64,000 nucleotides of DNA from a bacterium (GTDB lineage: Bacteria > Electryoneota > Electryoneia > Electryoneales > Electryoneaceae). Of the stretch, positions 42,173 to 60,793 are shown piece by piece (the first letter of the stretch is position 1; each line of letters starts with the position of its first letter). Where the stretch lies: positions 434,001 to 498,000 of the forward strand of contig JAHLLH010000003.1 of assembly GCA_020444265.1 (NCBI GenBank). The letters are read 5' to 3'. The notes beneath the pieces are model-generated. The model was not told the DNA's origin, searched no databases, and was given only the letters and a program-made list of their open reading frames with translations. The translations under genes were made by a program, and so were the position numbers.

Positions 42173-42204
42173 ATTTATCATGAATTCATTCGATCGCACG
42201 AATT

Positions 42205-42250
42205 GGGACATTTTGTCCGCATAGGGGGCTCGATTGGGTCAAAACGTCTC
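42205..42250. promoter_or_regulatory. Two copies of a 15-bp palindromic motif, far upstream of gdh1
   Basis: GGGACATTTTGTCCG (42205-42219) and GGGTCAAAACGTCTC (42236-42250, the complement reading GAGACGTTTTGACCC) have centres 31 bases apart, close to three helical turns. They belong to the motif family GRGWC-RTTTT-GWCYC seen also at 42440-42475, 50185-50217 and 59382-59396. They lie about 320-370 bases before the glutamate dehydrogenase start, at the distance of a remote regulator site. Confidence 0.55.
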
Positions 42251-42400
42251 GAAAGGAGGCCTCACGTCTAACTTTTTTAGATCATTTTCGCGGAAGTCAG
42301 AATTGTGCTAAACTCCTTGGAGTAAATGATTAAGCTGGTTGTACTTAAAAGTGTAGACGTGGACTATCAAGTAGTTAGCGTGGTAGGGGAGGCGAACGGG

Positions 42401-42429
42401 TTGACAACGAAAAGGGGGGCGACTACTTT
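42401..42429 (+). promoter_or_regulatory. Sigma-70-type promoter candidate for gdh1
   Basis: TTGACA (42401-42406, perfect -35) and TACTTT (42424-42429, weak -10) are separated by 17 bases, about 140 bases before the start codon. Transcription would begin near 42436, immediately before the two palindromic motifs at 42440-42475. Confidence 0.5.
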
Positions 42430-42439
42430 TCTTCACAGT

Positions 42440-42475
42440 GAGACATTTTGACACGGCGTTGAGTCATTTTGTCTC
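42440..42475. promoter_or_regulatory. Tandem palindromic operator candidate in the gdh1 leader
   Basis: GAGACATTTTGACAC (42440-42454) and GAGTCATTTTGTCTC (42461-42475) are two copies of the same 15-bp motif with centres 21 bases apart, i.e. two helical turns on the same face. They sit just after the predicted transcription start, the place of a repressor operator, although activator binding is equally possible if the true start lies further downstream. Confidence 0.6.
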
Positions 42476-42559: not shown

Positions 42560-43933
<1,374 letters not shown>

Positions 43934-44026: not shown

Positions 44027-47008
44027 ATGAGTAAAAACGGCAGCAATAGCCCGCGCGCGGAACAGGCGCAGGCACAGCTGGGATTCCAGAACCTGATGCG
44101 CAATCGTGTCCACCAGGTGCTGCTGGTCTCCAGCCTCTACGACTCGTTTATCCTGTCGCAGGATGGGCAGATCAACGAGCTGCTGCTGTCGGACTTCATG
44201 GCGCTCAACCTCTACCAGGCCCCGGAAACCACACGAGTTCCCCGGGCGAAAGAGGCGTTGAAACTGCTTGAAGAGCAGGCTGATCGATTCAACTTGATCA
44301 TCACAACAGCTCATGTCGGTACGATGCACGTCCTCACCTTCGCCAAACGAGTGCGTGAGATGGGGATAAAAGTTCCGATTGTTTTGCTCTCATATGAGAA
44401 CAAGGAAGTACAGGGACTGAAGAAGCGGAAGGATATCAAATACGTCGACAAAATTTTCCTCTGGCAAGGCGATTTTCGGATGCTCCTCGCCATCGTTAAG
44501 TTTGTTGAAGACCAGATGAATGTTGAGCATGATACGAGTGAGATGGGAGTGCAGACGATCATTCTGATCGAGGACAACACCCATTTTTATTCCTCCTATC
44601 TACCGATGCTCTACACCGAATTGATGAAGCATTCCCAAAGTCTGATCGGGGAAGGACTGAATACGGGGCACAAAATCCTCCGAATGCGTGCCCGCCCGAA
44701 AATCCTGCTTTGCGAAACGTATGAAGAAGCGTGGGAGCATTACGAAGCATATGCGCCCTGTGTGATGGGTGTTATCTCCGATGTGGAATTTGAACGGAAT
44801 GGCGAAAAAGATTCTAATGCTGGAGCAACCTTTGTCGCGGAGGTGAAGAAACGTCAGCCCGATATGCCGGTGCTGTTACAGTCGTTCCGTCAGGATATGG
44901 ATGGCGAGGCGGAAGAGATCGGTGCGGGTTTTATCCGAAAAGACTCGCCCACCCTTTTGAAGGAACTGAAGGCGTTCCTGACCGAGCAGCTTGGCTTCGG
45001 CGATTTTCGCTTCCTCTCCTCTCAGGGCGAGGAGGTTGATCGCGCAAAAGATCTTCGAATGCTCGAAGAAAAACTTCGAACTATTCCGGATGACAGCCTG
45101 GTCTTCCATGCTGAACGAAACCATTTCTCCAACTGGCTGAAGACCAGAACCGAATTTGCTCTCGCCGATAAGCTGAAGCCGCGAAAGGTCAGCGACTATC
45201 CATCGACAGATGCGCTTCGTGACTATCTGATCGAAAGCCTGCGCAACAGCCGTCGTGAACTGCAGCGGGAGCTGTTGGTCGATTTCAGCAAGGAGTCCTT
45301 TGATCCCGATTCCGGGTTCGCACGTATTGGTGGTGGCTCGCTTGGTGGCAAGGGGCGTGGCCTCGCTTTCATGCATCATCTGCTCAACATCAACCGGTTG
45401 GGTGAGCAGTTCAAAGATGTTACCGTTACCGTGCCACCGACCGTAGTCCTCTGCTCGGATGTCTTCGACAGTTTCCTCGACACCAATGACCTGCGGGATT
45501 TCGCAGTTCAGTCGATGGATGAAGAGGCCTTGCTCCAGCGGTTCCTCGATGCTGAAATGCCCGAAGAGGTCTATACCCAGCTCGGCGAGTTGGTGGAGAT
45601 GGTCGATTATCCGTTGGCCGTACGATCCTCAAGTTTGCTGGAAGACAGTCAGTACCAACCGTTTGCGGGCGTGTATGAAACGTACATGCTGCCCAACAAC
45701 CACCCGCAAGCAAGTCTTCGTCTACAGAAACTGATCTCGACCATCAAACGTATCTTCGCCTCGATGTACCGTGAACTGGCACGCCGTCACATCTCGGCCA
45801 CACCTTATCGTCTCGAAGAGGAGAAGATGGCGGTGGTGATCCAGCGGTTGATCGGCAGGCGACACGGCCCACGCTACTATCCGGATATATCAGGTGTTGC
45901 CAAGTCCTATAATTACTATCCGAAAGAACCGATGGACGCGAAGGATGGCGTTGCCTCCCTCGCGCTTGGTCTTGGCAAGCTGGTTGTGGAAGGCGGTGAG
46001 ACGGTACGAGTCTGTCCGAAATACCCGAAGCACATCCTCGCGCCGAGCACGAACCCGGAGTTCCTGGAGCATTCGCAGAAGCAGTTTTATTCGTTGAATC
46101 TCGAAGCCGAAGCCCTTGATGAACATGGTGCACCCGCACTGAACAGCCACCCGTTGAGCATCGCCGAAGAAGATTTGACCTTGCACTATGTCGGATCGGT
46201 GTACAGCCATGAGAACGACGCGATGTATGATGGCCTTTCGAGAGCCGGGGTTCGTCTGGTCACCTTTTCGCCGGTGCTGAAGTTGGGAGTCTTTCCGCTT
46301 CCAGCCATCCTGACCGATTTGTTGAAGATTGCCTCGGAGGGTACAGGGGGCCCCGTCGAGGTGGAGTTTGCCGCCAACTTGTCAGTACCAAAAGGGGAGG
46401 CGAGAGAATTCAGCGTGCTGCAGATTCGTCCGATGGTTCTGAACCGCGAGGCGGAATCGATCGATTTTAACGGTATCAGCCGGAATGACATCCTCTGCGA
46501 AAGTGAGATGGTGCTTGGTGTCGGACAAATGGACGACATTTACGACATCCTCTATGTTGACATTACCGAGTTTAACCGGGCAGAAACGAGACGTGTCGCG
46601 CAGGAGCTGGAACGGTTCAATGGTACGTTAGGCGCGGAAGAGCGGCCTTATCTTCTGATTGGTGTTGGACGGTGGGGTTCGTCCGATCCCTGGCTCGGAA
46701 TCCCTGTGAGCTGGGACCAGATTTCGGGTGCAAAAGTGATCGTTGAAACCGGGTTCACGGACATCAAGGTTACTCCGTCCCAAGGCGCGCATTTCTTCCA
46801 CAATCTGATGTCGTACATGATTGGCTATTTCACCGTGAACCCGGCATATGGAGAAGGCAGGATTGACTGGGAATGGCTGCGAAGACAGCAGGTGGAGACT
46901 GAAGGGGAGTATATCCGGCACTTGCGGTTTGATACCCCGGTCGTGGTCAAGATGAATGGTTCAAAGCGCAAGGGAGTTATCTGCAAACCAGCGGCAGGAA
47001 AACGCTGA
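44027..47008 (+). CDS. Receiver-like/PPDK_N protein without phosphohistidine and PEP domains
   Basis: A cytoplasmic protein of 993 residues. Residues about 28-165 have a receiver-like pattern, but the phosphoacceptor position in LIITTAHV (about residue 94) is not Asp. Residues about 178-335 form a second receiver with acidic pocket ILIEDN, Asp252 in VISDVEF, and IRKD Lys. From about residue 435 follows the ATP-grasp domain of PEP synthase/PPDK (SLGGKGRGLAFMHHLL, LAVRSSSLLEDSQYQPFAG). The swivelling His domain (G-G-x-T-x-H) and PEP barrel are absent. Instead the C-terminus has GVGRWGSSD (879-887) and GAHFFHNL (His922), shared with the protein at 56128-59349. Next come a kinase and an NtrC-type regulator. 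The reaction is unknown; ATP-dependent phosphotransfer is an inference. Confidence 0.85.
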   Translation: MSKNGSNSPRAEQAQAQLGFQNLMRNRVHQVLLVSSLYDSFILSQDGQINELLLSDFMALNLYQAPETTRVPRAKEALKLLEEQADRFNLIITTAHVGTMHVLTFAKRVREMGIKVPIVLLSYENKEVQGLKKRKDIKYVDKIFLWQGDFRMLLAIVKFVEDQMNVEHDTSEMGVQTIILIEDNTHFYSSYLPMLYTELMKHSQSLIGEGLNTGHKILRMRARPKILLCETYEEAWEHYEAYAPCVMGVISDVEFERNGEKDSNAGATFVAEVKKRQPDMPVLLQSFRQDMDGEAEEIGAGFIRKDSPTLLKELKAFLTEQLGFGDFRFLSSQGEEVDRAKDLRMLEEKLRTIPDDSLVFHAERNHFSNWLKTRTEFALADKLKPRKVSDYPSTDALRDYLIESLRNSRRELQRELLVDFSKESFDPDSGFARIGGGSLGGKGRGLAFMHHLLNINRLGEQFKDVTVTVPPTVVLCSDVFDSFLDTNDLRDFAVQSMDEEALLQRFLDAEMPEEVYTQLGELVEMVDYPLAVRSSSLLEDSQYQPFAGVYETYMLPNNHPQASLRLQKLISTIKRIFASMYRELARRHISATPYRLEEEKMAVVIQRLIGRRHGPRYYPDISGVAKSYNYYPKEPMDAKDGVASLALGLGKLVVEGGETVRVCPKYPKHILAPSTNPEFLEHSQKQFYSLNLEAEALDEHGAPALNSHPLSIAEEDLTLHYVGSVYSHENDAMYDGLSRAGVRLVTFSPVLKLGVFPLPAILTDLLKIASEGTGGPVEVEFAANLSVPKGEAREFSVLQIRPMVLNREAESIDFNGISRNDILCESEMVLGVGQMDDIYDILYVDITEFNRAETRRVAQELERFNGTLGAEERPYLLIGVGRWGSSDPWLGIPVSWDQISGAKVIVETGFTDIKVTPSQGAHFFHNLMSYMIGYFTVNPAYGEGRIDWEWLRRQQVETEGEYIRHLRFDTPVVVKMNGSKRKGVICKPAAGKR

Positions 47009-47047: not shown

Positions 47048-48775
47048 ATGGGTGACAACCCGACCATGAGCAATCCAGCAGGAAAATTCAGCGCGGACGA
47101 TATTCATTCGTTGTCCCAGCAGATCAACATCCTCTGCATCCAGGACAACCATCGAATCTCGTTCCTGACGCGTGTTACCCGTATGCTGTTGACGCATTCC
47201 CGCTGCGACTCGATCAACATCTGGTTCCGTGAAGGGTCCGGTTTCCTAACGGTAGAAAGTTCTCTGGCCAGCGCGGAAAAAGTACGAATCGAAAATGTAC
47301 CGGTGATGTTCGTACCCTCTCATTGGGCGCGTAACTCGATTGCCATGCGCAGCCATCTGAACGATATATGCCGGCGTGTGCTTCATGATTCGCATCCGGA
47401 GAATGGACTGAATGTCACCCCCTATGGCAGCGCCTGGGCTGGGGATGTGACCACTCAATTGCCTGGCTACCATGACAAGCGTGCGAAACGATCCGCTGAA
47501 TCTACCACCTATGACCGTTTCATCGCCATTGTGCCGGTTCGGATCGGGAAGCTGAGAACTGGGGTGATGTTGCTGTCGGCAGAAGAACCAAATGTATTGG
47601 ATGAACAGGATATTCTCTATTTCGAGGATATTGCTGAAACCCTGGGCATCGCCTTTAACCACATCCAGACCCAGACCGCCCTCAGCGAGCGAATCAAGGA
47701 ACTGACCTGCCTCTATGGCATTTCCAAGATCGGGGAAGATCCCAATCTCGATTTTCCGACGATGCTCCATCACATTGTCGAATTGATCCCACCTGGTTGG
47801 CAGTATCCTGAATACACGATGGCTCGGATTATTCTTGACGGTGAGGAATATCGGACCCAGGTCTTCAAGGAAACAGCTTTCATGCAGGAGGCGGCCATTG
47901 CGGTCAGTGGTCGTAAACGAGGCAAGGTGGAAGTCTATTACGGCCATACCTTCCCCGAGCTGGACGAGGGGCCCTTCCTCAAGGAAGAACGCAATTTGAT
48001 CAATGCGGTGGCCCGTCAGATCGGCAATCTCGTTGAGAAACAGGAAGCGGAGGAGGAAAAACTGGTCCTCGAGGAACAGCTCCTCCACTCGGACCGTCTC
48101 GCCACCATCGGTCAGCTTGCAGCAGGTGTAGCGCACGAGATCAACGAGCCGCTCGGCAATATTCTCGGTTTCGCACAACTCGCGCAACAGAATGAGAACA
48201 ATCCACCGCAAACAAAACAGGACTTGGAAAAGATTGTCAATGCTTCCCTGCACGCTCGTGAAGTGATTCGTAAGTTGCTGGTTTTTTCAAGGCAAGTGCC
48301 GAAGAAGAAAACCCTTTTGCAGTTCAATGAAGTCATCGAGGATAGCCTCTACTTCTTTGAGTCTCGATTTATCAAATCCGGCATTCAAATTGTCAAGGAC
48401 TACACCGAGGACCTGCCAAGACTGGCAGCAGATCCGACCCAGATTTCGCAAGTTGTGATCAACCTGATTGTCAATGCGCTCCATGCCATGTCTTCGGGTG
48501 GCACCCTGACCCTGCGTACCTTCAGGCAAGAAGGGTTCCTGGTCTTGCAGATCATCGACACAGGTGTCGGGATGAGTGATGAGGTGCGCAGTAAAATGTT
48601 CCTGCCCTTTTTCACGACCAAAGATGTCAATGAGGGTACGGGACTCGGGCTGGCCGTGGTGCACGGTATCGTCACCTCACATGATGGGTCGATTGAGGTG
48701 CGCAGCGAGTTGGGCGAGGGGACCGAAATCGATGTACGTTTCCCACTAATTGAAGAAGCTGAGGGAGAGGACTAA
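47048..48775 (+). CDS. Cytoplasmic sensor histidine kinase with GAF-like domains
   Basis: A 575-residue soluble kinase with no transmembrane segment. Residues about 25-205 form a GAF-like domain. Residues about 213-340 form a second (ELTCLYGISKIGEDPNLDFP ... GKVEVYYGHTF), clearly related to the N-terminus of the PPDK_N-nucleotidyltransferase protein at 56128-59349. The HisKA domain has H-box His363 in GVAHEINEPLGNI, and the ATPase domain has N, G1 and G2 boxes (NLIVNALHAM, IDTGVGM, GTGLGLAVVHGI). The lack of membrane helices indicates a cytoplasmic signal. It ends one base before the response-regulator gene, its obvious partner; the receiver of the upstream PPDK_N protein could be a second target. 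Confidence 0.9.
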   Translation: MGDNPTMSNPAGKFSADDIHSLSQQINILCIQDNHRISFLTRVTRMLLTHSRCDSINIWFREGSGFLTVESSLASAEKVRIENVPVMFVPSHWARNSIAMRSHLNDICRRVLHDSHPENGLNVTPYGSAWAGDVTTQLPGYHDKRAKRSAESTTYDRFIAIVPVRIGKLRTGVMLLSAEEPNVLDEQDILYFEDIAETLGIAFNHIQTQTALSERIKELTCLYGISKIGEDPNLDFPTMLHHIVELIPPGWQYPEYTMARIILDGEEYRTQVFKETAFMQEAAIAVSGRKRGKVEVYYGHTFPELDEGPFLKEERNLINAVARQIGNLVEKQEAEEEKLVLEEQLLHSDRLATIGQLAAGVAHEINEPLGNILGFAQLAQQNENNPPQTKQDLEKIVNASLHAREVIRKLLVFSRQVPKKKTLLQFNEVIEDSLYFFESRFIKSGIQIVKDYTEDLPRLAADPTQISQVVINLIVNALHAMSSGGTLTLRTFRQEGFLVLQIIDTGVGMSDEVRSKMFLPFFTTKDVNEGTGLGLAVVHGIVTSHDGSIEVRSELGEGTEIDVRFPLIEEAEGED

Positions 48776-50149
48776 ATGACGCGCGAGCTGGCAGGCCGGG
48801 GAGAACGAATCCTGATTGTGGATGATTCTCCCGCGACACTCGAGGTCATGAGCCGTAACCTGACCAACCAGGGCTACAAGGTCAGCACCGCTCCGAGCGT
48901 GCTCGAAGCCATCGCGTTCCTCGACGAGAACGAGGTCGATCTGGTCATCACCGACTACATGATGCCGAAGATCAGCGGTTTAGAGTTGATGAAACATGTC
49001 CGCGAAAACGTACGCGATACCGAAATTATCATGATCACCGGTTATGCATCGGTGGAGGGTGCTGTCGAGGCGATGAAGGTGGGGGCTGAGGAATATCTCT
49101 CAAAGCCCTTCACCGATGAGGAGTTGTTCGACGCAGTACGTCGTGCCCTGGACAAATTGGCGATGAAACGGGCTACACGGTCCATCCCAGGTCAAAAACC
49201 ACGCGAACAGTATGGTATCCTCGGCAATTCCGAAGCGATCCGTGAACTTCGAAACCTGATCGCAAAAGTTGCATCCACTCCGGCCACAGTGCTGGTGACA
49301 GGCGAGAGTGGAACGGGCAAAGAACTGGTCGCACGCGCCGTCCACTACAGTGGTAACCGTTCCAATAAACCTTTCGTACCCGTCAATTGCGGCGGCATCC
49401 CCGAGTCCTTGCTCGAAAGCGAGTTGTTCGGGTATGTGAAAGGTGCCTTCACCGGGGCAGGTGAGACACGCGGGGGCTTTTTCCACACCGCTGATGGCGG
49501 AACCATTTTCCTCGATGAAGTGGGTGAGATGAGTCTCACGATGCAGGTCAAACTCTTGCGCGTGCTACAGGAAAGAGAAGTGACCATGCTGGGCAGCAGC
49601 AGGCCACAGAAGGTGGATATCCGTATCATCGCGGCGACCAACAAGGACCTGCCTTTCCTTGTGCAGAAAGGACTCTTCCGCGAGGATCTCTATTTCCGTC
49701 TGAACATCATCACGATCAACACCCCACCGTTGCGAGAACTGGGCAATGATATCCTCCTGCTGACTCAGGTCTTCACCCGGAAGTACGCCGAGGAAATGGG
49801 TAAAGTAGTGCCGAGTTACAGCGATAAAGCGCTCGAGATTCTGCGTGATTACCATTGGCCCGGCAATGTCCGTGAGTTACAGAATACGATCCAGCGGCTG
49901 GTGGTGATGTCTGATGGGGATTCCATCCAGATTCCCGACCTGCCCTCGTTAATGCGTTTCACAGTAGACCGGCGCGGCGGCGTCAACCGTACCCTGGAGG
50001 AAGTGGAATGGGAGCACATCCTCAACGTGCTCGCCAGTGTTGATAATAATAAATCTCGGGCTGCCGAGATTCTAGGCATCAGTCGTAAAACCCTCCACCG
50101 GAAGCTGAATGCGATGGGACGGGATGGGGACGAGGAGAGCGACGACTAG
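48776..50149 (+). CDS. NtrC-family sigma-54 response regulator
   Basis: A 457-residue activator. The receiver domain has phosphoacceptor Asp60 in LVITDYMMPK. The AAA+ domain carries Walker A GESGTGKE, the sigma-54 contact loop GAFTGA at residues 223-228, Walker B GGTIFLDEVGEM and arginine-finger region FREDLYFRLN. The C-terminus has a Fis-type helix-turn-helix (NNKSRAAEILGISRKTLHRKL). It is fused tightly to the kinase gene (no gap) and is followed, 215 bases on, by a consensus sigma-54 promoter with palindromic sites between, so an autologous target is likely right next door. It acts by remodelling sigma-54 RNA polymerase. Confidence 0.94.
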   Translation: MTRELAGRGERILIVDDSPATLEVMSRNLTNQGYKVSTAPSVLEAIAFLDENEVDLVITDYMMPKISGLELMKHVRENVRDTEIIMITGYASVEGAVEAMKVGAEEYLSKPFTDEELFDAVRRALDKLAMKRATRSIPGQKPREQYGILGNSEAIRELRNLIAKVASTPATVLVTGESGTGKELVARAVHYSGNRSNKPFVPVNCGGIPESLLESELFGYVKGAFTGAGETRGGFFHTADGGTIFLDEVGEMSLTMQVKLLRVLQEREVTMLGSSRPQKVDIRIIAATNKDLPFLVQKGLFREDLYFRLNIITINTPPLRELGNDILLLTQVFTRKYAEEMGKVVPSYSDKALEILRDYHWPGNVRELQNTIQRLVVMSDGDSIQIPDLPSLMRFTVDRRGGVNRTLEEVEWEHILNVLASVDNNKSRAAEILGISRKTLHRKLNAMGRDGDEESDD

Positions 50150-50180: not shown

Positions 50181-50221
50181 AAGTGGGACTTTCTGACTCG
50201 ATGAGTCATAATGTCCCACTT
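50181..50221. promoter_or_regulatory. Long inverted repeat made of two 15-bp motif copies; possible enhancer or terminator
   Basis: Two 19-base arms (17 matching) flank GAT; each arm contains the motif (GGGACTTTCTGACTC and GAGTCATAATGTCCC). It lies 32 bases after the response-regulator stop codon and about 170-190 bases before the start expected from the sigma-54 promoter at 50364, the usual distance of an upstream activator site. It could also fold as a terminator, as it is followed by TATTTATT. Confidence 0.6.
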
Positions 50222-50363
50222 ATTTATTGTTGAGGTGAACTCTCCTTGACCACCAGTTTCTCCTGATAGAGGATGGAGTTTGCTATATAAGAGTATGTAA
50301 TAAAAAGAAATAGATAGTTTATATGATCCCGAATTACGATTGACTCCAACCATTCCTCCAAAC

Positions 50364-50379
50364 TGGCACTCCGGTTGCA
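50364..50379 (+). promoter_or_regulatory. Sigma-54 promoter
   Basis: TGGCAC (50364-50369), five bases, then TTGCA (50375-50379) match the -24/-12 consensus completely. Transcription would start near 50391, about 47 bases before the small-protein start codon. The neighbouring NtrC-type activator gene supports it. Confidence 0.88.
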
Positions 50380-50437
50380 AATAGAAGAGTCAAACAACAA
50401 CAGATACAGCATCGCAACCTTGCGGGAGGATAGAAAG

Positions 50438-50770
50438 ATGGAAACGATTGTCAAGAGCACCCAGCCGACCAACGTTGAAGAGAAAAATGTTGCCAGCGAA
50501 GCGAAGCAGGATCAGGTCACCTATCTTGACAGCGAGACCCGTATCCGGATGATGACCCCGACTTTCAGCATGCGCGGTATCGACGATGCTCCCGTCGTTG
50601 AGCTGAAGTCCGATCCCGGTTTCCATATCGAGGGTGAAGCTCAGGCCGAGCCAGAACTGGTGCGCGCCGACATGGTCCTGACCGGGATCTGTGTCAACTG
50701 TGCCCAGCGGACCGACTGCAAGCTGACCCACCCGGAGAATGTGATTTGGCACTGCGAAGAATACTATTGA
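50438..50770 (+). CDS. Small protein with a C-terminal cysteine motif, under sigma-54 control
   Basis: A 110-residue soluble protein; GGGAGGA stands before the ATG chosen here, while the in-frame ATG further up would overlap the sigma-54 promoter. The N-terminal two thirds are acidic and low in structure. The C-terminus, CVNCAQRTDCKLTHPENVIW followed by HCEEYY, has four cysteines spaced as a possible metal- or redox-binding knuckle. I recall similar short tails (C-x2-C-x5-C ... W-H-C-E-E-Y) in small uncharacterised proteins of other bacteria, but know no function. It is the only gene between the sigma-54 promoter and a strong terminator, so it is the direct and single target of that promoter. 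Confidence 0.8.
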   Translation: METIVKSTQPTNVEEKNVASEAKQDQVTYLDSETRIRMMTPTFSMRGIDDAPVVELKSDPGFHIEGEAQAEPELVRADMVLTGICVNCAQRTDCKLTHPENVIWHCEEYY

Positions 50771-50803
50771 TCGACCCTTTCTCCATGCGGGACCCATCCA
50801 ACG

Positions 50804-50838
50804 CAAAACACCCCGGCAGCAGATGCCGGGGTGTTTTG
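50804..50838. terminator. Bidirectional intrinsic terminator
   Basis: A perfect 15-bp stem (CAAAACACCCCGGCA with complement) around a five-base loop has T-rich and A-rich flanks on both strands. It lies between the small cysteine-motif gene (plus) and egtD (minus), so it can end both transcripts. Confidence 0.9.
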
Positions 50839-50852
50839 TCTCGTCGTCTCAA

Positions 50853-51857
50853 TCAATCTACTTCTTTAACAACACGCCAGATCGAATCGACAAAGTCACG
50901 GTCGTCGTCAAACAGTTGATGTTCGATTACAAAACCTGTGTCAGCAGCAAGTTGTTCGATATCCGAGACCAGGAATTTGTAAGAGTATTCCGTATGAATC
51001 GGCTCGAAGGGGAGGAAGTTGAATCGCTGGTTCACCTCACGGATGTAGACCTCCTGCTCGACCTTGCTGACAAGGTAGGATTCCATCGCTCCGCTGAAGA
51101 CATCATAGTTGGCATAGTGACGCCAATTGCTCAGCACAAAATTGCCTTCCAGCTCACGATTGATCCTTGTCAGGAGATTCAGGTTGAAGGCACGGGTCAC
51201 ACCTTCTGTGTCATTATAGGCTCGAACCATCCGTTCGATGTTTTTCTTCAGATCGAACCCGATCAGGATGCAATCGTCCGGTTTGAGAAAATTCCAGACA
51301 CTCCTGAGGAAGGCTCTCGCTTGCCCACGATGGAAATTGCCGATGTTTGAGCCGAGGAAGAGGACAAAATTCCGTTCTTTGCTCTGATGAGAATGCCACA
51401 ACAATCCATCGAAGTATTCTGCGACAATCCCTTCGACATTCAATGCACTGAAACGATCTTCAAGGTCTTTCATTTGCAGCTGGACAGCGGCTTCCGAGAT
51501 GTCTATCGGGGTGTATGTAAAGTTCAAGTTGCGCCTGATAAATTCTTCGAGTAACTGGTTGGTTTTGCGCCCGTCTCCCGATCCCAAATCGATCAGGTTA
51601 AAGGATTCGCCGCCCATCATCTCTGCCAGTTTCCCTTTGTTCACATCAAGAATTCGATGTTCAGCCCCAGTCAGGTAATAATCATCCAGGTTTGTGATCT
51701 GCTGGAAGAGACGGCTGCCTTCATCATCGTAGAAGAAACGTGATGGCAGGCTTTTTTCGGTTTTGGACAGCCCCAACAGAACTTCGAGGCCGAACAGCTC
51801 ACGTGTGCTGCGTACCGATTCAAGATCCTGGTGGGTGAGGACTTTGTACTGTTTCAT
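50853..51857 (-). CDS. egtD: L-histidine N-alpha-methyltransferase
   Basis: A SAM-dependent enzyme of about 334 residues that trimethylates histidine to hercynine, the first step of ergothioneine synthesis. It shows the family opening GLSKTEKSLPSRFFYDDEGSRLFQQI, LDDYYLTGAEHRIL, the SAM-binding LIDLGSGDGRKTNQLL, and FLGSNIGNF. ATG at 51857 is preferred because GAGGA lies just ahead; a longer in-frame start at 51878 overlaps the egtB stop region. It follows egtB by ten bases in one operon. Confidence 0.92.
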   Translation of the reverse strand: MKQYKVLTHQDLESVRSTRELFGLEVLLGLSKTEKSLPSRFFYDDEGSRLFQQITNLDDYYLTGAEHRILDVNKGKLAEMMGGESFNLIDLGSGDGRKTNQLLEEFIRRNLNFTYTPIDISEAAVQLQMKDLEDRFSALNVEGIVAEYFDGLLWHSHQSKERNFVLFLGSNIGNFHRGQARAFLRSVWNFLKPDDCILIGFDLKKNIERMVRAYNDTEGVTRAFNLNLLTRINRELEGNFVLSNWRHYANYDVFSGAMESYLVSKVEQEVYIREVNQRFNFLPFEPIHTEYSYKFLVSDIEQLAADTGFVIEHQLFDDDRDFVDSIWRVVKEVD

Positions 51858-51867
51858 CGTGGATTCC

Positions 51868-53151
51868 TCAAGGAGCATCGTCGGCGAGACGGATGCCGTT
51901 GAACTGCCACCGTTTGTCAGCGTGGAAGAAATTCCGATAGCTGGTGCGGATGTGGTTGCGAGGGGTTGCGCATGATCCGCCGCGCAGAACCATCTGGTTG
52001 CTCATAAACTTGCCGTTGTACTCGCCAATTGCACCATCGGCAGGCTTAAAGCCCGGGTAAGGGAGATAGGCGCTGGCGGTCCACTCCCAGACATCTCCGA
52101 ACATTTGACGCAGGCCATCGCCCGGTGCGGCTGGGGCGGGATGGAGTGAGTTGTTCTCGACAAAGTTTCCATCTTTCATCGAGCCACGTTGCGACGCGTG
52201 TTCCCATTCAAATTCTGTTGGGAGACGTTTCCCCGACCACGTAGCGAAGGCATCCGCTTCGTAGTGGCTGATGTGGGTGACTGGTTCGTCTGGATTCAAC
52301 TCACGAGGACCGGAAAGGGTAAAGATTTTCCAGCCGCCACCTTCACGCATCCAGTAGAGCGGTGCTTCCCACCCCTCATGGTCACAGGTAGCGAAACCAT
52401 CAGAGAGCCACCATTTCGCGTCCTGGTAGCCCCCATCCTCGATGAAATCAAGGTATTCGCCTACCGTTACCAGGGTGTTGCGAAGCTTGAAAGGATTCAG
52501 GATGACACGGTGACGAGGAAGTTCATTATCATAGCTGAACTCCGCGCCGTTATAGCCGATCTCAACCAGCCCACCATCAAATTCCACCCAATCAATTTCC
52601 TGCCTCGACTCGTACTTGGTCAATTGTTTCAGATCCTCACGATAGGCGGGCAGCAGCGGGTTCAGGTAAAGGTTGTACTTCACATCGGTCAGCATCAATT
52701 CCTGGTGCTGTTGCTCGTGGTTGAGGCCGAGGGTGATCAGGTTATGGACGGTGGGGTAGAGGGAGTCATCGACGTCATGGATCAGCTCGGCAATCCGATT
52801 GTCGATCTCCCCGCGAAACCGCACGATCTCCTCGACCGTTGGCCGCCCCACCATGCCACGGTGGTCACGACGATGTCTTGGTCCCGCCTGCACATAGTAG
52901 GAATTGAAGAGGAAGGCGTACTTTGGATGGTAGGGGGTATAATCCTTGACAAAGTCACCTAGTACAAAGGCCTCAAAGAACCAGGTCACATGGGCCAGGT
53001 TCCAGGCAGGTGGAGAAGCATCTTCCATCCCCTGAATGACATGCTCCTCGAGGGTCAAAGGTGCACAGAGGGTTTCAGTTTGACGACGGACCTCTTGGTA
53101 GCGGCGGATCAGTTGGTCACGAGAAAGCATTTTCCTATCCCAGTCTGTCAT
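51868..53151 (-). CDS. egtB: Ergothioneine biosynthesis sulfoxide synthase EgtB
   Basis: A non-haem iron enzyme of 427 residues joining hercynine with cysteine or gamma-glutamylcysteine by oxidative C-S bond formation. The N-terminal DinB-like domain supplies iron ligands: His54 (NLAHVTWFFE) and the H-x3-H motif His145/His149 in LNHEQQHQE. The C-terminal formylglycine-generating-enzyme-like domain ends RGGSCATPRNHIRTSYRNFF. No egtA, egtC or egtE is nearby, so sulfur-donor and lyase steps must use genes elsewhere. It overlaps the upstream DUF427 gene by four bases (ATGA). Confidence 0.93.
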   Translation of the reverse strand: MTDWDRKMLSRDQLIRRYQEVRRQTETLCAPLTLEEHVIQGMEDASPPAWNLAHVTWFFEAFVLGDFVKDYTPYHPKYAFLFNSYYVQAGPRHRRDHRGMVGRPTVEEIVRFRGEIDNRIAELIHDVDDSLYPTVHNLITLGLNHEQQHQELMLTDVKYNLYLNPLLPAYREDLKQLTKYESRQEIDWVEFDGGLVEIGYNGAEFSYDNELPRHRVILNPFKLRNTLVTVGEYLDFIEDGGYQDAKWWLSDGFATCDHEGWEAPLYWMREGGGWKIFTLSGPRELNPDEPVTHISHYEADAFATWSGKRLPTEFEWEHASQRGSMKDGNFVENNSLHPAPAAPGDGLRQMFGDVWEWTASAYLPYPGFKPADGAIGEYNGKFMSNQMVLRGGSCATPRNHIRTSYRNFFHADKRWQFNGIRLADDAP

Positions 53152-53574: not shown

Positions 53575-54351
53575 ATGATCCAGCTCGATCATGTGGGGAA
53601 ACAATATCCCTCGTCCAGTTCCTGGGCGGTACGCTACCTCAACCTCGATGTGGAGAAGGGGGAGCTGCTGGTCCTGCTGGGTGGGTCGGGAAGCGGGAAA
53701 ACGACGACGCTAAAAATGGTCAATCGCCTTATCGAACCTACCGAAGGCCAAATCCTCATCGATGGTCACGACACCGTGTCCGGGGACCCGGTTCAGCTTA
53801 GGCGCAGCATCGGGTATGCCTTCCAGGGTATTGGCCTCTTTCCACATTTTACCATCGCCCAAAATGTGGGTGCGGTTCCCTCTCTGCTTGGCTGGTCTCA
53901 AACAGAAATCCAGACTCGTGTTCAGGAGCTGTTGGAATTGGTCAACCTCGATCCGGATGTGTTTGCTGAACGAAAACCTTCTGAACTGTCTGGGGGACAG
54001 CAGCAACGAGTTGGTGTGGCACGTGCATTGGCCGCTCGTCCCCAGGTCATGCTGTTGGATGAGCCCTTTGGAGCACTCGATCCATTAACACGAGATGCTC
54101 TACAACAGGAGTACCTCACGATTCACCGTTCCCAGGGGCTGACCGCCATCCTGGTGACGCATGACATGACAGAAGCGCTGCTGCTTGCGGATCGTATCGC
54201 GGTGATGGATCAGGGCACCATCCTGCAAGTCGGAACCCCTTCCGAATTGCTTCGCAACCCGGATCACCCCAACGTAGAACAACTGATGCAGACTCCGAGA
54301 CGACAAGCGGATCAGCTTGAGGCCCTGCTGCGTGGGGGTGGCAATGAGTGA
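53575..54351 (+). CDS. Glycine betaine/choline-type ABC transporter ATPase (OpuCA/ProV-like)
   Basis: An ATPase of 258 residues: Walker A GGSGSGKTT, Q-loop AFQGIGLFPHFTI (the Gln-Gly-Ile-Gly-Leu-Phe-Pro-His form typical of osmolyte uptake ATPases), signature LSGGQQQRV, Walker B VMLLDEPFGALD, switch LVTHDMTEA. It lacks the C-terminal CBS domains of full OpuCA/ProV, so ionic-strength gating may be absent. It overlaps the permease-binding-protein gene by eight bases. Confidence 0.9.
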   Translation: MIQLDHVGKQYPSSSSWAVRYLNLDVEKGELLVLLGGSGSGKTTTLKMVNRLIEPTEGQILIDGHDTVSGDPVQLRRSIGYAFQGIGLFPHFTIAQNVGAVPSLLGWSQTEIQTRVQELLELVNLDPDVFAERKPSELSGGQQQRVGVARALAARPQVMLLDEPFGALDPLTRDALQQEYLTIHRSQGLTAILVTHDMTEALLLADRIAVMDQGTILQVGTPSELLRNPDHPNVEQLMQTPRRQADQLEALLRGGGNE

Positions 54352-55846
54352 CCGCGTCCACGATGCCCTCGCGCTGCTGCCGGACTACCTCAGCGGTCAC
54401 ATGAGCCTGTCCATCGGGGCGCTGCTGATTGGGTTGATCATCAGCCTTCCCATGGCGCTTGCTGCGACACGGATCAAATCGCTGAAGCTTCCCCTGTTGA
54501 CGATCACCAGCCTGTTGCAGACCATCCCCAGCCTCGCCCTGTTGGCTCTTATGGTGCCACTGCTTGGACGGATCGGTTTCGTGCCCGCGTTGATCGCTTT
54601 GATCCTCTACAGCATGTTGCCGATTGTGCGAAATACAGTCGCCGGTATCGAAGGAGTAGATCCGGCCTTGACTGAGGCGGCACGTGGGATCGGGATGACT
54701 GACTGGCAGATGTTGACACGTGTCGAACTTCCGCTCGCCGCACCGGTCATCCTCGCAGGAATACGTACGGCCACAGTCTGGGTAGTCGGCATCGCCACCC
54801 TCTCGACACCAGTCGGTGCGACCAGCCTCGGCAATTTCATCTTCAGTGGTTTGCAGACTCAGAATACGACCGCTGTCCTGGTTGGGGTGGCCGCTGCTGC
54901 AACCTTGGCTATTGCCCTGGACCTGTTGATACGATTGCTCGAAATCGCAGCGGCGAAAAGGAGTTTCGCCCTCGGATTGCTGGCGGGTCTGCTTCTGGTG
55001 GGTGGTATCGGTGGCTCTTTCATGCTGAAACTATCCAGTATGGGGGCCGGGGATGCGCCCGTTGTTCGGATCGGCACCAAAACCTTCACCGAGCAGTACA
55101 TCCTCGCTGAGCTGATCGGCAACCGTCTCGAGCTGGCTGGGTATCATGTCGAGAAGGTTGAAAGCCTCGGATCAACCGTCATGTTTGAGGCCCTCTCGCA
55201 GGGCAACCTTGACATCGCCGTCGATTACAGCGGCACGATCTGGGCCAACCACATGCAGCGCAGGGATAACCCGGGACGGCAAGCGGTTTTGGATACGATG
55301 ACCCAGTGGCTTCTGGACGAGAAGGGTATCCATTGCCTCGGCTCCTTGGGTTTCGAGAACGCCTATGCGATGGCGATGAGTCGGGAGAGGGCCGAGAAGC
55401 TGGATATCCTTACAATCGCAGACCTGGCGACGCATTCCTCGAACCTCAGTATCGGTGGGGATTATGAGTTTTTCGACCGGCCCGAGTGGTTCGTAGTACG
55501 AGATACCTACGGCCTTGACTTCAGCGAGCTGCGTCGCTTCGATTCCAGCCTGATGTACCCGGCGGTGCGTGATGGTCTGGTTGATGTGATCGGCGCCTTC
55601 AGCACGGATGGACGCATCCTCGCTTATAATCTGGTTGTTTTAGATGATACCAAGGGAGCCTTTCCACCGTACGATGCGGTCTTGTTGCTATCAAAGGATG
55701 CCGTTGAGAGGGGTTTGGCTGAGGAGCTGCATACGCTGGTTGGCAGCATCAGCAATGAAATGATGATGGATGCGAACAAGCGGGTCGATTTGGATGGGAA
55801 GTCTGTTGAGAACGCCGCAATTTCACTTGCTGATCCCCAACGGTAG
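54344..55846 (+). CDS. Fused permease and substrate-binding protein of a quaternary-amine ABC transporter
   Basis: A 500-residue protein. Residues about 1-215 form an OpuCB/ProW-type permease with the EAA-like loop LTEAARGIGMTDWQMLTRVELP. After another membrane helix (FALGLLAGLLLVGGIGGSF) residues about 240-495 form an OpuAC-type binding protein (VVRIGTKTFTEQYILAELIGN, DIAVDYSGTIW). The fusion of permease and binding protein is known in this transporter family. Expected substrates are betaine, choline or similar osmoprotectants. The ATG at 54344 is used since earlier starts lie inside the ATPase gene. Confidence 0.88.
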   Translation: MSDRVHDALALLPDYLSGHMSLSIGALLIGLIISLPMALAATRIKSLKLPLLTITSLLQTIPSLALLALMVPLLGRIGFVPALIALILYSMLPIVRNTVAGIEGVDPALTEAARGIGMTDWQMLTRVELPLAAPVILAGIRTATVWVVGIATLSTPVGATSLGNFIFSGLQTQNTTAVLVGVAAAATLAIALDLLIRLLEIAAAKRSFALGLLAGLLLVGGIGGSFMLKLSSMGAGDAPVVRIGTKTFTEQYILAELIGNRLELAGYHVEKVESLGSTVMFEALSQGNLDIAVDYSGTIWANHMQRRDNPGRQAVLDTMTQWLLDEKGIHCLGSLGFENAYAMAMSRERAEKLDILTIADLATHSSNLSIGGDYEFFDRPEWFVVRDTYGLDFSELRRFDSSLMYPAVRDGLVDVIGAFSTDGRILAYNLVVLDDTKGAFPPYDAVLLLSKDAVERGLAEELHTLVGSISNEMMMDANKRVDLDGKSVENAAISLADPQR

Positions 55847-56127: not shown

Positions 56128-59100
56128 CTATTCACTTACGTCCGAGGTACCAATGGGTGCTGCGCCGTGCCGTATCCCACTCTTGTGCTTCCCCAGCGGG
56201 ATCTGCTTCGCCGGGTCGGTGGGGGAGTTGATGCGCTCGGCGTAGTCACGGTTTTTCGCGATGTCTTTGTCGGTCACCATGTGCACATCCAGCAGTCCGC
56301 CTGTACGGTGCCCGGTGCGCGCAAAGTTGATCTCATCCATTGCGTACGACCAGCCATCGAACCATGCCTGCAATTCCTTCTTCTGACGGCTGTTCGCATC
56401 GACATGCACCAGAAGATCAACATCACTGTCTGGCAACACATTGCCGTTCTTCGTGCTGCCGAAGAGGTAGAGGGCTTTGACCCCGAAACGTTCTGTATCC
56501 ACTTGTTCGGCAATCGCCTCTACCATTTTCATCCGCCAACGCCAGTGGTCTTCCTGATCCTTGTGCCAGTGGGACCGCTTTTTCAAGCCGCTGGACGTTG
56601 TCTGACCGGATCGTTGCGAGAAGATTGCCACCGCTTCGTCCACATCGGCGTTCATGAAGACACGTACCACCTTACCTTCCATCACTTCAGGGACGTTGAT
56701 CACACGGACAACGTCAGCGAGGTGACGATACTCCGGTAGCATGTCAGGCAGTTTGTTCTCGGTGTCCAGCAGGAAGGATTCGTTGAAGACTGATTCCTCG
56801 TCATCGGGGTAGAGGGGCAAATACCGGATGGAGGCTTCGACCAGGTCCTGGAAGAAGTGGGTTCCGAACGACAGGTCGGGCAGGTAATTACCCTTCTGTT
56901 TCGCAATTTCAATCAACATGGCCGTATTGTTGATGTCGCTATAGGTGACGTTGACACCCAGCTTGATATCGCCGCGGCTGCCCCAACGGCCTGGCCCCAT
57001 CAGGATAAATTGACGCTTCGGCAGGATGCTGTTGAGCTGGCCGACGACACGCCCTACCGTCATCAAATCTTCATGGCTGGAAATTTCGCTGTACTTGATC
57101 GGATCGACGTAAACCACGTGGGTGATGTCCGGAACCTTGCCATTGCTGACAAACTTGTTGGCGGTGAAGAGGATCGCGTTTTCCGGGATATCCTGCGGGA
57201 TCGGAGTCGATTCGATCTCCATCGAGTTGCTCTGGGGACGGCATTGCAGCAAATAGAACCGTTTCCCATCCGAAGCGTACTCGATATCCACCGGGACGCC
57301 CATTTTTTCCTCGAGGACGCGCAGGATGGTCTGCATCAGCTTGATGAAAGGGCCACGGTGGACCAGTCCCTCGAAGGTGACAACAAAATCATCCTGCTCG
57401 AAATCGAGGTTAAGTAGCGTGGTATGGGTGAGACGATTGTCCTCCAGCTTGGAGACAAGGCGTTCCACAGCCGGAAGTTCCGCGCCATGCTCCTTGAGGA
57501 AGGCTTCTGCTTCTACCGTCTCAAATTCGTTCGTGTCAAGGTTGATAACGTCCATGTAGCGTGGTGCGTAACGGATCGTTTCATCTACCGTCACATTGAC
57601 CCGCAAGCCCGGCTGACCGGGAGCCACAAGGATGGTGTAGTCGTCCGCCAGACGGTCCACGGCTCGAGTACCCAATCCCGGCACGAGGCGGATCAGGCCA
57701 TCCTCTCGCTTGATCCGTGGCGACCAGCGGAACTCGTTGCGACTGAACGCCACGCCCGCGAAACTGGGCAGGAAGTAGTCCCCGACACGAGTGCCTACCA
57801 CTTCCTGGATCAGGATGCCCATTTCCTCGTGGAAATCGATCAGGCCGCGTTCCGAACGATACTCGATCGGGTCGCTGCCAAATGTCGAGGAATAGACCTC
57901 CGCGATCGCATCCATCAGGGCTTCCAAACGTTCCCGTTTCGTCCCCTGGTTGGCGAGGAAGAGGCTGGTATACTTCCCGGAGAAAGCGGCACCCAAACGG
58001 TCCTCGAGCAGGGAGGAGGAGCGGACAATCAACGGTCCGTCGCCAAAGTCATCAAGTGCCATCGAGAGGCCCTGGATAATTTCGGAGGGGAAACGTGAAT
58101 TTTTGAAGAGTTGAATGACGTGGGGGTGTTCGATCCGTACCTGCTTCAGCCCCTTGTATTTCTGTTCGGTAATCTCTTCCAGATTATTGTGCTGCAGGAA
58201 GCTGTGGAGGCCGTCCGAGGTGATGTACCAGGTCTTCGGCATCCGCACATCCGTCAGCTCCGGGTACTCGGCGCTCATCTGTTTCAGGATACGGTTGGCG
58301 AGGAATAGCCCGGCACTCTTGCCTCCGACCTTGCCACGGCTGGAGACGGGGTGGATCAGCTTACGGATCAGGGTGATGAAGTCCTTGATCTCGACATACT
58401 TTTTTGCGATGTCGATGAACTCGACCTGATCGGTGAGGAAGCGACGAACCAGCGCCACCTTCAGCCCCTGCCTTGTCCACTCCGGCAAATCGAGCGAGTC
58501 GAGCGAGAGGTGGTGGAAACGGCGGACCGCTTCGGAAATATCGTTGAGCGAGGTGTCGAGGTTGATCAGCGTGCGGACAAGGAAGCCGGCACGGTCTTCC
58601 TGCATCCACTGCTGGATCAGCGCACGGCTGTCCACATCCTGCAGGTTCTCCTCCGCGATCCGGAAGATTTCCTCGCTGACCAGCATGATGTTGTAGGTGT
58701 TGCTGCGCTGCATGGGACGGTTGCCATTGACATCGACACTGTCCTCCGAACCCAGCCGATGCAAGACCTCCTCGACCTCCCGGACTCCATTCATCGACAG
58801 GTGAGTCATCATCTTGCGTGCGATGCGGACATATAGCTCCTCATCGGTGACACGCAACATGTCGACCACGACACGCCACTCTCCGCTTCGGGTGAAGGAG
58901 TCGAGCCGGTTCCCGCTACGATCCTGAAGGATCTCGGTCAGCTGACGGCGGCTTAAAAACTCGCCGAGACGAGTGGCGATGGTCCGCAGGAGCCGTTTCT
59001 CTTCCTCGTGGAAGAGCGAGTCGCTGCGCTTCTCGAGATCGTTGTCGTAATAGACCTCGACATACCCCTCAGTACGGTCGTTGACCTCGATCGGAGCCTT

Positions 59101-59349
59101 GTACGACCGGCTTGTCGGCCGCCGTCCAGCGGGGATGTACTGCCTGCCCTGGCAGGTGATCCGCGCGAAGCAATGGTCGGTGTAATGCCACCCGCTCGGG
59201 ATCGCATTGATCACCCCATTAAAAATCGTATCCATCGGCGCATCCGTCTGCGCCAACAGCTCCTCGATTTCCAACAGGCACGACAATTCCTTCGCCCGTT
59301 CCTCGAGCGACTTCAACAATCGCTCGTTCGTATTAAACATCTCGGCCAT
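56128..59349 (-). CDS. GAF-like/PPDK_N/nucleotidyltransferase fusion protein
   Basis: A cytoplasmic protein of 1073 residues. The N-terminal domain (about 15-140; CLLEIEELLAQTDAPMD ... GYVEVYYDND) is a GAF-like domain related to one in the kinase at 47048-48775. A helical region follows, then the ATP-grasp PPDK_N domain from about residue 335 (GKVGGKSAGLFLANRIL, LIVRSSSLLEDRLGAAFSG). The phosphohistidine and PEP domains are absent. A domain with GPGRWGS (785-791) and GTHFFQDL (His831) is shared with the protein at 44027-47008. The C-terminus has an MNT/AadA-type nucleotidyltransferase: Gly964-Ser965, then Asp976 and Asp978 (GS-x10-DVD). Its gene follows the second GDH gene with a terminator between. 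It may couple nucleotidyl transfer to nitrogen or carbon status; this is inference. Confidence 0.85.
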   Translation of the reverse strand: MAEMFNTNERLLKSLEERAKELSCLLEIEELLAQTDAPMDTIFNGVINAIPSGWHYTDHCFARITCQGRQYIPAGRRPTSRSYKAPIEVNDRTEGYVEVYYDNDLEKRSDSLFHEEEKRLLRTIATRLGEFLSRRQLTEILQDRSGNRLDSFTRSGEWRVVVDMLRVTDEELYVRIARKMMTHLSMNGVREVEEVLHRLGSEDSVDVNGNRPMQRSNTYNIMLVSEEIFRIAEENLQDVDSRALIQQWMQEDRAGFLVRTLINLDTSLNDISEAVRRFHHLSLDSLDLPEWTRQGLKVALVRRFLTDQVEFIDIAKKYVEIKDFITLIRKLIHPVSSRGKVGGKSAGLFLANRILKQMSAEYPELTDVRMPKTWYITSDGLHSFLQHNNLEEITEQKYKGLKQVRIEHPHVIQLFKNSRFPSEIIQGLSMALDDFGDGPLIVRSSSLLEDRLGAAFSGKYTSLFLANQGTKRERLEALMDAIAEVYSSTFGSDPIEYRSERGLIDFHEEMGILIQEVVGTRVGDYFLPSFAGVAFSRNEFRWSPRIKREDGLIRLVPGLGTRAVDRLADDYTILVAPGQPGLRVNVTVDETIRYAPRYMDVINLDTNEFETVEAEAFLKEHGAELPAVERLVSKLEDNRLTHTTLLNLDFEQDDFVVTFEGLVHRGPFIKLMQTILRVLEEKMGVPVDIEYASDGKRFYLLQCRPQSNSMEIESTPIPQDIPENAILFTANKFVSNGKVPDITHVVYVDPIKYSEISSHEDLMTVGRVVGQLNSILPKRQFILMGPGRWGSRGDIKLGVNVTYSDINNTAMLIEIAKQKGNYLPDLSFGTHFFQDLVEASIRYLPLYPDDEESVFNESFLLDTENKLPDMLPEYRHLADVVRVINVPEVMEGKVVRVFMNADVDEAVAIFSQRSGQTTSSGLKKRSHWHKDQEDHWRWRMKMVEAIAEQVDTERFGVKALYLFGSTKNGNVLPDSDVDLLVHVDANSRQKKELQAWFDGWSYAMDEINFARTGHRTGGLLDVHMVTDKDIAKNRDYAERINSPTDPAKQIPLGKHKSGIRHGAAPIGTSDVSE

Positions 59350-59506: not shown

Positions 59507-60793
59507 TCAGCACCACCCACGATCCTTACACGCCTGTGCGACGCGGTTGATGGAGATGGCGTAGGCGGCGTCGCGCATGTAGAGCTTCTTCTTGCGGGAG
59601 AGTTCGCTGACGGCTTTGAAGGCAGTGGTCATCTTCTCGTCGAGCTTGGTGAGCACCTCTTCACGGGTCCAGAAGTAGTTCATGTTGCACTGCACCTGCT
59701 CGAAGTAGCTACAGGTCACACCGCCGGCGTTGGCGAGGAAGTCCGGCACGACGAAAATGCCGCGACGTTCAAGCTCGACGTCCGCTTCCGGCGTGGTCGG
59801 GCCGTTGGCACCTTCCGCCACGATCTTGACCTTGTCGCTGATTTTCTTGGATGTCTCACCCGTCACCTGATTTTCCAGCGCGGCGGGGATGAGGATGTCG
59901 ACATCCTGCTCGATCCAGGCGCCGCCCTCGAGGACCTCGTAGCCCAGTTCCTTTGCCTTCGCTTTGTCGATGCCGCCGAAACGGTCGGTCACCGCGAGGA
60001 GCTCGTCGATGTTGACGCCGACCGTCTTGCGGAAGGTGTAGGACGTCTGGTCGCCTTGGTCCCAACTGGAGACGGCGACAACCGTGCCACCGAGCTCGTT
60101 GTAGAGGCGGATGGCGTACTGCGCCACGTTGCCGAAGCCCTGGAAGCTTGCGGTGGTGGTGGCGGGATCGATATTCTTTTCTTTGAGCGCTTCGCGGACG
60201 GTGTAGATCACACCATAGCCCGTCGCTTCGGTACGGCCAAGGCTACCGCCCATGCCAACCGGCTTGCCGGTGATGAAACCAGGGGCCTTGTAGCCGCTGA
60301 TCTGCTCGTACTCGTCCAGCATCCACAGCATGTGTTGACTGTTGGTCATCACGTCCGGTGCGGGAACATCGTTGAGCGGGCCGACGTTTTTTGCCATCTG
60401 ACGGACCCAGCCACGGCAGATCTGCTCCTGCTCGCGCATGGAGAGGTTGTGTGGGTCGCAGATAACACCGCCCTTACCGCCGCCGAGGGGGATGTCCACC
60501 ACAGCACACTTCCAGGTCATCCAGGTCGCGAGCGCCTTGACCGTATCCACCGTTTCCTGCGGGTGGAAGCGGATGCCGCCCTTGCTGGGACCGCGTGCAT
60601 CATTGTGCTGGACACGGAAACCCTGGAATACCTTCACGGTACCATCGTCCATGCGGACGGGAATACTGAAATGGAACTGACGCAACGGGTTGCGCAACAG
60701 TTCTCTTGTGCCTTCATCGAGGCCGATTTGCTCAGCGACCTTGTCAAACTGGGCTTGGGCCATCTCGAACGGATTGAACGCCTTGCCAGCCAT
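59507..60793 (-). CDS. Glutamate dehydrogenase, GudB/RocG-like type
   Basis: A second glutamate dehydrogenase of about 428 residues, close in length to catabolic NAD-type GudB/RocG enzymes and clearly different from the 453-residue gdhA at 42572. Motifs: QHNDARGPSKGGIRFHP, the catalytic Lys region DIPLGGGKGGVICDP, DVPAPDVMTN, coenzyme fold FQGFGNVAQYAIRLYNELG, and LANAGGVTCSYFEQVQ. Coenzyme preference is inferred from similarity only. ATG at 60793 follows AGGAG by six bases; TTG at 60796 is less likely. Having both types allows separate assimilation and breakdown of glutamate. Confidence 0.94.
   Translation of the reverse strand: MAGKAFNPFEMAQAQFDKVAEQIGLDEGTRELLRNPLRQFHFSIPVRMDDGTVKVFQGFRVQHNDARGPSKGGIRFHPQETVDTVKALATWMTWKCAVVDIPLGGGKGGVICDPHNLSMREQEQICRGWVRQMAKNVGPLNDVPAPDVMTNSQHMLWMLDEYEQISGYKAPGFITGKPVGMGGSLGRTEATGYGVIYTVREALKEKNIDPATTTASFQGFGNVAQYAIRLYNELGGTVVAVSSWDQGDQTSYTFRKTVGVNIDELLAVTDRFGGIDKAKAKELGYEVLEGGAWIEQDVDILIPAALENQVTGETSKKISDKVKIVAEGANGPTTPEADVELERRGIFVVPDFLANAGGVTCSYFEQVQCNMNYFWTREEVLTKLDEKMTTAFKAVSELSRKKKLYMRDAAYAISINRVAQACKDRGWC

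Follow-up and report, generated by a model that had tools for sequence, protein, structure and literature searches.

The window, by which we mean the whole 64,000-nucleotide stretch of DNA that was analysed, carries a gene for a small Cys-motif protein of 110 aa (50438-50770, plus strand; 12.5 kDa, pI 4.6). Upstream of this gene lie genes for a sensor histidine kinase containing a GAF_2-like N-terminal region, HisKA and HATPase_c (47048-48775, plus strand; Pfam) and for an NtrC-family response regulator and sigma-54 activator containing Response_reg, Sigma54_activat and HTH_8 (48776-50149, plus strand; Pfam). The activator combines a receiver, an AAA+ domain with the GAFTGA motif and a Fis-type helix-turn-helix, as found in NtrC-family enhancer-binding proteins. 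An NADP-specific glutamate dehydrogenase (GDH) of the gdhA type (42572-43933, plus strand; NCBIfam NF006929, 757 bits with a cut-off of 536) is encoded in the same cluster as the kinase and activator, about 6.5 kb upstream of the small gene. Between GDH and the kinase is the gene for a 993-aa protein with PPDK_N (ATP-grasp) and response-regulator-like domains (44027-47008, plus strand; Pfam), the response-regulator match being below the family cut-off. A second GDH gene, archaeal-like, is located at 59507-60796 on the minus strand and adjoins the gene for a protein with PPDK_N and nucleotidyltransferase domains (56128-59349); both GDH genes of the window are therefore neighbors of a large PPDK_N ATP-grasp protein gene. 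At 53575-55846, the translations suggest an importer similar to those for osmoprotectants: an ABC ATPase, plus a permease with a substrate-binding domain fused to it.

A sigma-54 promoter of the form TGGCAC-N5-TTGCA is predicted on the plus strand at 50364-50379, with the transcript expected to start at about position 50390, and is followed by a putative ribosome-binding site, GGGAGG, at 50424-50429 (plus strand). The promoter sequence, TGGCACTCCGGTTGCA, matches the sigma-54 consensus perfectly, with the GG and GC of the -24 and -12 elements in place (TGGCAC-N5-TTGCW), and is the only site in the window with zero or one mismatch. The genome from which the window derives (4.33 Mb in 19 contigs, 94% complete) encodes one RpoN (PF04552, E = 3e-51) and contains 14 perfect sites, as compared with 7 for the reversed control pattern; on these counts, a chance perfect site in the 288-bp gap upstream of the small gene would be expected only ∼0.0005 times. 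The other perfect sites are found in contexts different from that of the Cys gene. The large FtsX/MacB-like permease genes at loci L118 and L123 of this genome resemble each other and each begin close to a perfect site; they may represent another group of sigma-54 targets in the organism. When 360 bases around the start of each of 73 non-redundant Cys genes were scored with a position weight matrix (PWM), a sigma-54-like site with a score of at least 22 was present upstream of the gene on the coding strand in 55 of 73 cases and on the antisense strand in 1 of 73. Sigma-54 control is therefore common to the gene family and extends beyond the window.

At the other end of the small gene, a 16-bp hairpin (50803-50839; fold z = -7.0 relative to shuffled sequences) with a T run on both strands separates it from a convergent egtD-like gene. 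This hairpin is a strong predicted terminator, probably bidirectional as judged from its sequence. It was not among the results of a simple terminator scan of the window, probably because its T run sits within the stem. The convergent gene encodes an egtD-like histidine methyltransferase (Methyltransf_33) and, together with an egtB-like gene (DinB_2 and FGE-sulfatase domains), occupies 50853-53151 on the minus strand; the pair probably belongs to the ergothioneine pathway. The original prediction for this region had named the TGGCAC-N5-TTGCA promoter, a strong terminator and a single protein as the entire output of the promoter. Both elements are present as predicted, the promoter as a perfect site of a kind retained upstream of family genes, and the orientation of the next gene fits a one-gene transcript.

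Upstream of the promoter, two adjoining inverted half-sites, GTGGGACTTTCTGACTC and GAGTCATAATGTCCCAC, form a putative enhancer (UAS) at 50181-50221. The arms of the inverted repeat (50181-50199 and 50203-50221) are 19 nt each, 89% complementary and 3 nt apart, with a 34-bp core dyad at 50185-50218 that outscored all of 200 shuffled versions of the intergenic gap. A 34-bp element, GGGGAAATTCTCCCC-AnTGG-TTCAAATnTCCCCG, occupies the equivalent position in the gaps of 66 of 72 related loci (matching at 20 or more of 34 letters) and was matched in 0 of 72 shuffles; the enhancer-like palindrome reported earlier from the window corresponds to this element. As a non-circular test, a PWM was built from 21 Planctomycetota elements alone and applied to the 50 other loci; 46 of the 50 scored at least 8, as compared with 1 of 1000 shuffles. 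Within the window gap, this PWM matches best at 50185, precisely on the palindrome (0 of 1000 shuffles), and an all-relative PWM built without the window gave the palindrome as the tied best match in the 64 kb. Mean pairwise identity is 0.67 inside the element and 0.27 in its flanks. The distance from the center of the element to the -24 position has a median of 169 bases among the loci and is 163.5 bases in the window. The window enhancer nevertheless scores 12.4, below all relatives (22.7-52), and its half-sites read GGGAC/GTCCC where those of relatives read GGGGA/TCCCC. From these comparisons, we conclude that the window palindrome is a diverged copy of the relatives' 34-bp element and that it is very probably the enhancer of the adjoining activator. 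A search of 11 relatives' genomes with a tight pattern for the full element gave a match in six, exactly one in each. Separately, the relaxed pattern TGRGWCN5GWCYC was no commoner genome-wide than its control and gave way to a tighter form. The combination of enhancer, promoter, activator and small gene recurs in other phyla far above chance.

The window activator is 60-67% identical to NtrC proteins encoded adjacent to Cys genes, versus 40-44% to second, non-adjacent NtrC proteins (two loci), and the window kinase is ∼40-45% identical over ∼560 aa to kinases adjoining the Cys gene in other phyla. These identities indicate that the window carries the same module, of which the 47048-48775 protein would be the cognate kinase. 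The recognition helix of the activator reads SRKTLHRK, unlike that of any of the 57 relatives compared, which follow the pattern D/N/G-R-K-T-L/I-R/L-x-K/R, where D and R predominate. The conserved element at 50181-50221 and an unusual recognition helix thus occur in one organism. Both helix and enhancer are unusual there, as a joint change would lead one to expect, and they appear to have changed together; this is seen in one lineage and so is a correlation of one.

The 110-residue gene with four terminal cysteines was also found as described. The only cysteines of the window protein are residues 85, 88, 94, and 106 (C-x2-C-x5-C-x11-C-EEYY), and residues 1-84 are cysteine-free. Related genomes yielded weak matches to the protein, and the family is defined by their alignment, in which two Cys4 sites, C-x2-C-x5-C-x12-C-E-E-F and C-x2-C-x5-C-x11-C-E-E-Y, are joined by 30-44 residues. 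The window protein retains the C-terminal site, a putative metal site with the signature G-I-C-x2-C-x5-C-x11-C-E-E-Y that agrees with the family form G-L/I-C-x2-C-x5-C-x11-C-E-E-Y in the alignment and is matched at 40 bits by an independent HMM built without the window sequence. The full family profile gives E = 1.8e-25, the window sequence itself being one row of that profile. The N-terminal site is missing, and an HMM of the first site had no match to the N-terminal part of the protein; in the multiple alignment, residues 17-50 look like what is left of the first site without its cysteines, but the HMM test did not support this reading, which is therefore not adopted. With its four cysteines and C-x2-C-x5-C-x11/12-C spacing, the protein resembles small Cys4 zinc-ribbon and rubredoxin-like proteins, but it differs from them in having no significant relative in Pfam, NCBIfam, PHROGs or PDB sequences. 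A scan of genome contigs with the single window sequence likewise returned no relative, and relatives were found by an alignment-based scan. AlphaFold2 models of the window protein and of a two-site relative (pLDDT 58 and 55, respectively; pTM 0.19) are too poor to show a fold. From the cysteine pattern, the Cys4 sites of the small protein may hold Zn or an Fe-S cluster.

Within the window's phylum, 15 of 39 genomes contain a match to the family profile; among GTDB genomes it matched 157 stretches, and the 80 best of these were taken as loci. These 80, nearly all metagenome-assembled, represent about a dozen phyla, including Planctomycetota, WOR-3, Deltaproteobacteria, Zixibacteria, Calditrichota, Latescibacterota, Gemmatimonadota, Kiritimatiellae, Omnitrophota, Spirochaetota, Cloacimonadota, Aminicenantes, Bacteroidota, and others. 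They were selected by the single peptide pattern [EP][GA]G[IV]W[HF]CE, and more distant family members lie outside the sample. Neighborhoods were read by ORF clustering and tblastn over the family loci and revealed a constant order: histidine kinase, NtrC, a gap of ∼300 bases containing the enhancer and sigma-54 promoter, the Cys gene, and then enzyme genes. Immediately before the Cys gene, 48 of 61 loci have an NtrC gene; a histidine kinase gene is upstream in 49 of the 57 loci with room for one. The gene after the Cys gene, scored at 71 non-redundant loci, is NuoE in 53, GDH in 13 and neither in five. The NuoE genes begin a glutamate synthase (GOGAT)-type operon with the order NuoE, NuoF/GltA fusion, ferredoxin-like protein, and GltB. 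Domains identified in representatives with Pfam/NCBIfam are 2Fe-2S thioredoxin-like; Complex1_51K, NADH_4Fe-4S, Fer4_20 and Pyr_redox_2; Fer2_4/Fer4; Glu_synthase; and ELFV dehydrogenase. An assignment of the downstream enzymes to [FeFe] hydrogenase was rejected on the GltA- and GltB-type domains seen in the same searches. Loci L088 (5532-6258), L008, and L106 have two Cys-family genes per operon or locus.

In the window, neither NuoE-GOGAT genes nor GDH follow the Cys gene on its 3' side, and the GDH gene of the cluster lies upstream. No operon-type GltB was found in the window genome, which has only weak Glu_synthase matches, nor was a NuoEF-GltB operon; its NuoE and NuoF homologues are in other contexts. 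As the genome is 94% complete, the absent operon could be missing sequence. The region upstream of the NADP-GDH gene contains four window-type half-sites (42204, 42235, 42439, and 42460) within 272 bases (42204-42475). A pattern derived solely from the two half-sites of the Cys promoter gave 19 non-self matches with up to three mismatches in the 4.33 Mb, one of which is at 42438-42454, where the number expected in the pre-GDH gap is about 0.002. These may be further binding sites of the same activator, and a shift of the regulon from glutamate synthase to GDH in the window lineage is possible. At another locus of the window genome (L128, 2060-2498; G000:C9:647859-648297), two window-type half-sites, each with one mismatch to the refined pattern, lie upstream of a pntA-type NAD(P) transhydrogenase gene, at a distance of 326 bases from each other.

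The half-sites at GDH and pntA could instead be operators of another regulator that shares the motif by chance, and we give this explanation somewhat less than even odds. It would account for the finding that neither the NADP-GDH nor the pntA gene has a recognizable sigma-54 promoter, which makes their control by the activator doubtful, and for the lack of such half-sites before the GDH orthologues of three relatives. Against it, the sites match the window's own divergent variant of the enhancer, and they are paired before GDH.

The best explanation of the locus, to which we assign a probability of roughly two in three, is that a sigma-54 module dedicated to glutamate synthesis has its control region and a target gene there. 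The composition of the module, the promoter, the position of the enhancer and the family membership of the small gene are well supported by sequence comparison. The small protein itself probably assists or regulates nitrogen assimilation. That it is constantly linked to two unrelated types of glutamate-forming enzyme speaks more for a helper or regulator acting in trans than for a structural subunit of either. The Cys protein could nonetheless be a structural or electron-transfer subunit (a small Fe-S protein) or a maturation factor of the NuoEF-GltA-Fer-GltB enzyme, with the window copy an orphan subunit serving another redox partner. In most loci, its gene precedes that of NuoE, the peripheral 2Fe-2S subunit of a complex rich in Fe-S clusters, and the Cys4 sites are invariant or nearly so across the family, both of which would suit such a role. 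However, the 13 loci at which the gene is paired with GDH involve an enzyme that needs no Fe-S cluster, the window and locus L107 carry the Cys gene alone, and both single- and double-site forms seem to exist; we therefore regard a subunit or maturation factor as unlikely.

A role in feedback on the kinase and activator, for instance by sensing a metal or the redox state and damping the response, would be in keeping with the adjacency of the Cys gene to the kinase and NtrC genes in most loci and with its being the sole output in the window. The downstream enzyme genes (66 of 71 loci) are more constant neighbors than is the adjacent NtrC, however, several loci hold the Cys gene with no NtrC next to it, and neither domains nor interactions speak for feedback, so that we consider this role improbable. 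Another idea is that the palindrome does no more than terminate the kinase-activator operon and that the small gene is what is left, in decay, of an operon that has been lost. This idea draws on the ability of the palindrome to fold as RNA (z = -3.1) ahead of a T-rich stretch, on the lost N-terminal Cys site and on the missing downstream enzymes, but is very improbable given that the primary sequence and spacing of the element are kept across phyla at enhancer distance, that the palindrome is absent from the terminator scan, that the gene has a perfect-consensus promoter, an intact frame and C-terminal motif and a dedicated terminator, and that the activator helix is unusual along with its site.

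Under the preferred reading of a glutamate-synthesis module, the kinase would phosphorylate the activator in response to some nitrogen or redox signal. By analogy with NtrC systems, the activator would bind the enhancer as paired dimers and loop to the sigma-54 polymerase, and ATP-driven opening would induce the small protein. The small protein might then act in trans, assisting glutamate-forming enzymes or regulating their activity, and the NADP-GDH encoded in the same cluster would be its likely partner in the window organism. In the window lineage, the enhancer would have diverged jointly with the recognition helix, and GDH may have joined the regulon. A fuller scenario, in which helix and enhancer were re-coded, GDH (and perhaps pntA) gained half-sites, the GOGAT operon was lost and the Cys protein was kept as a trans-acting metal- or redox-dependent regulator, is tentative and, taken as a whole, doubtful. 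The lone small gene is a lineage-specific exception. The original prediction had called its product the likely effector or feedback element of the circuit; 'effector' holds in the weak sense that the gene is a conserved target, but not in the sense of a lone effector, since the gene leads glutamate-synthesis operons in relatives.

In enteric NtrC systems, paired enhancer sites are located 100-200 bases upstream and the targets serve nitrogen assimilation; the NtrC site is of the TGCACC type. The module resembles NtrB/NtrC control (e.g., of enteric glnA) in its histidine kinase and GAFTGA response-regulator activator, paired upstream enhancer sites, sigma-54 promoter, and nitrogen-assimilation targets. 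It differs in the activator subfamily and in the enhancer, a GGGGA-N5-TCCCC double site, as well as in having its full element once per genome (in the six matched genomes) and an unnamed Cys protein as the first target.

Two further systems share parts of the relatives' operons. The GOGAT operon of Geobacter sulfurreducens, GSU1235-GSU1239, has a predicted RpoN promoter and five genes in the order hypothetical, hypothetical, pyridine-nucleotide oxidoreductase, Fe-S protein, and gltB, and its first gene is called only a 'hypothetical protein' (PMC2725144). Compared by order only, this arrangement matches that of Cys gene, NuoE, NuoF/GltA, Fer, and GltB, whereas the window is without the enzyme genes. 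The Sporomusa-type Nfn transhydrogenase StnABC (PMC7483475) has NuoE-, NuoF-, and GltD-like electron-input modules, as do the relatives' operons. Stn, however, consists of three subunits with a GltD-NuoG fusion and no GltB, while in the relatives' operons NuoF is fused to GltA, the ferredoxin-like protein is separate, GltB is present, and the Cys gene comes first.

Literature searches returned no paper on the small protein, and no description of this particular module was found in the sources searched. An NtrC and sigma-54 circuit is of a textbook type, but the product of the first gene here belongs to no family. Unusually for a bacterial enhancer, the element has also stayed recognizable in sequence from phylum to phylum, and in one lineage helix and enhancer have apparently changed jointly. 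The Cys gene is as constant as the activator and leads glutamate-synthesis genes in many uncultured phyla. Taken together, the module suggests that an accessory or regulatory protein has been overlooked at the main nitrogen entry point of the bacteria that carry it.
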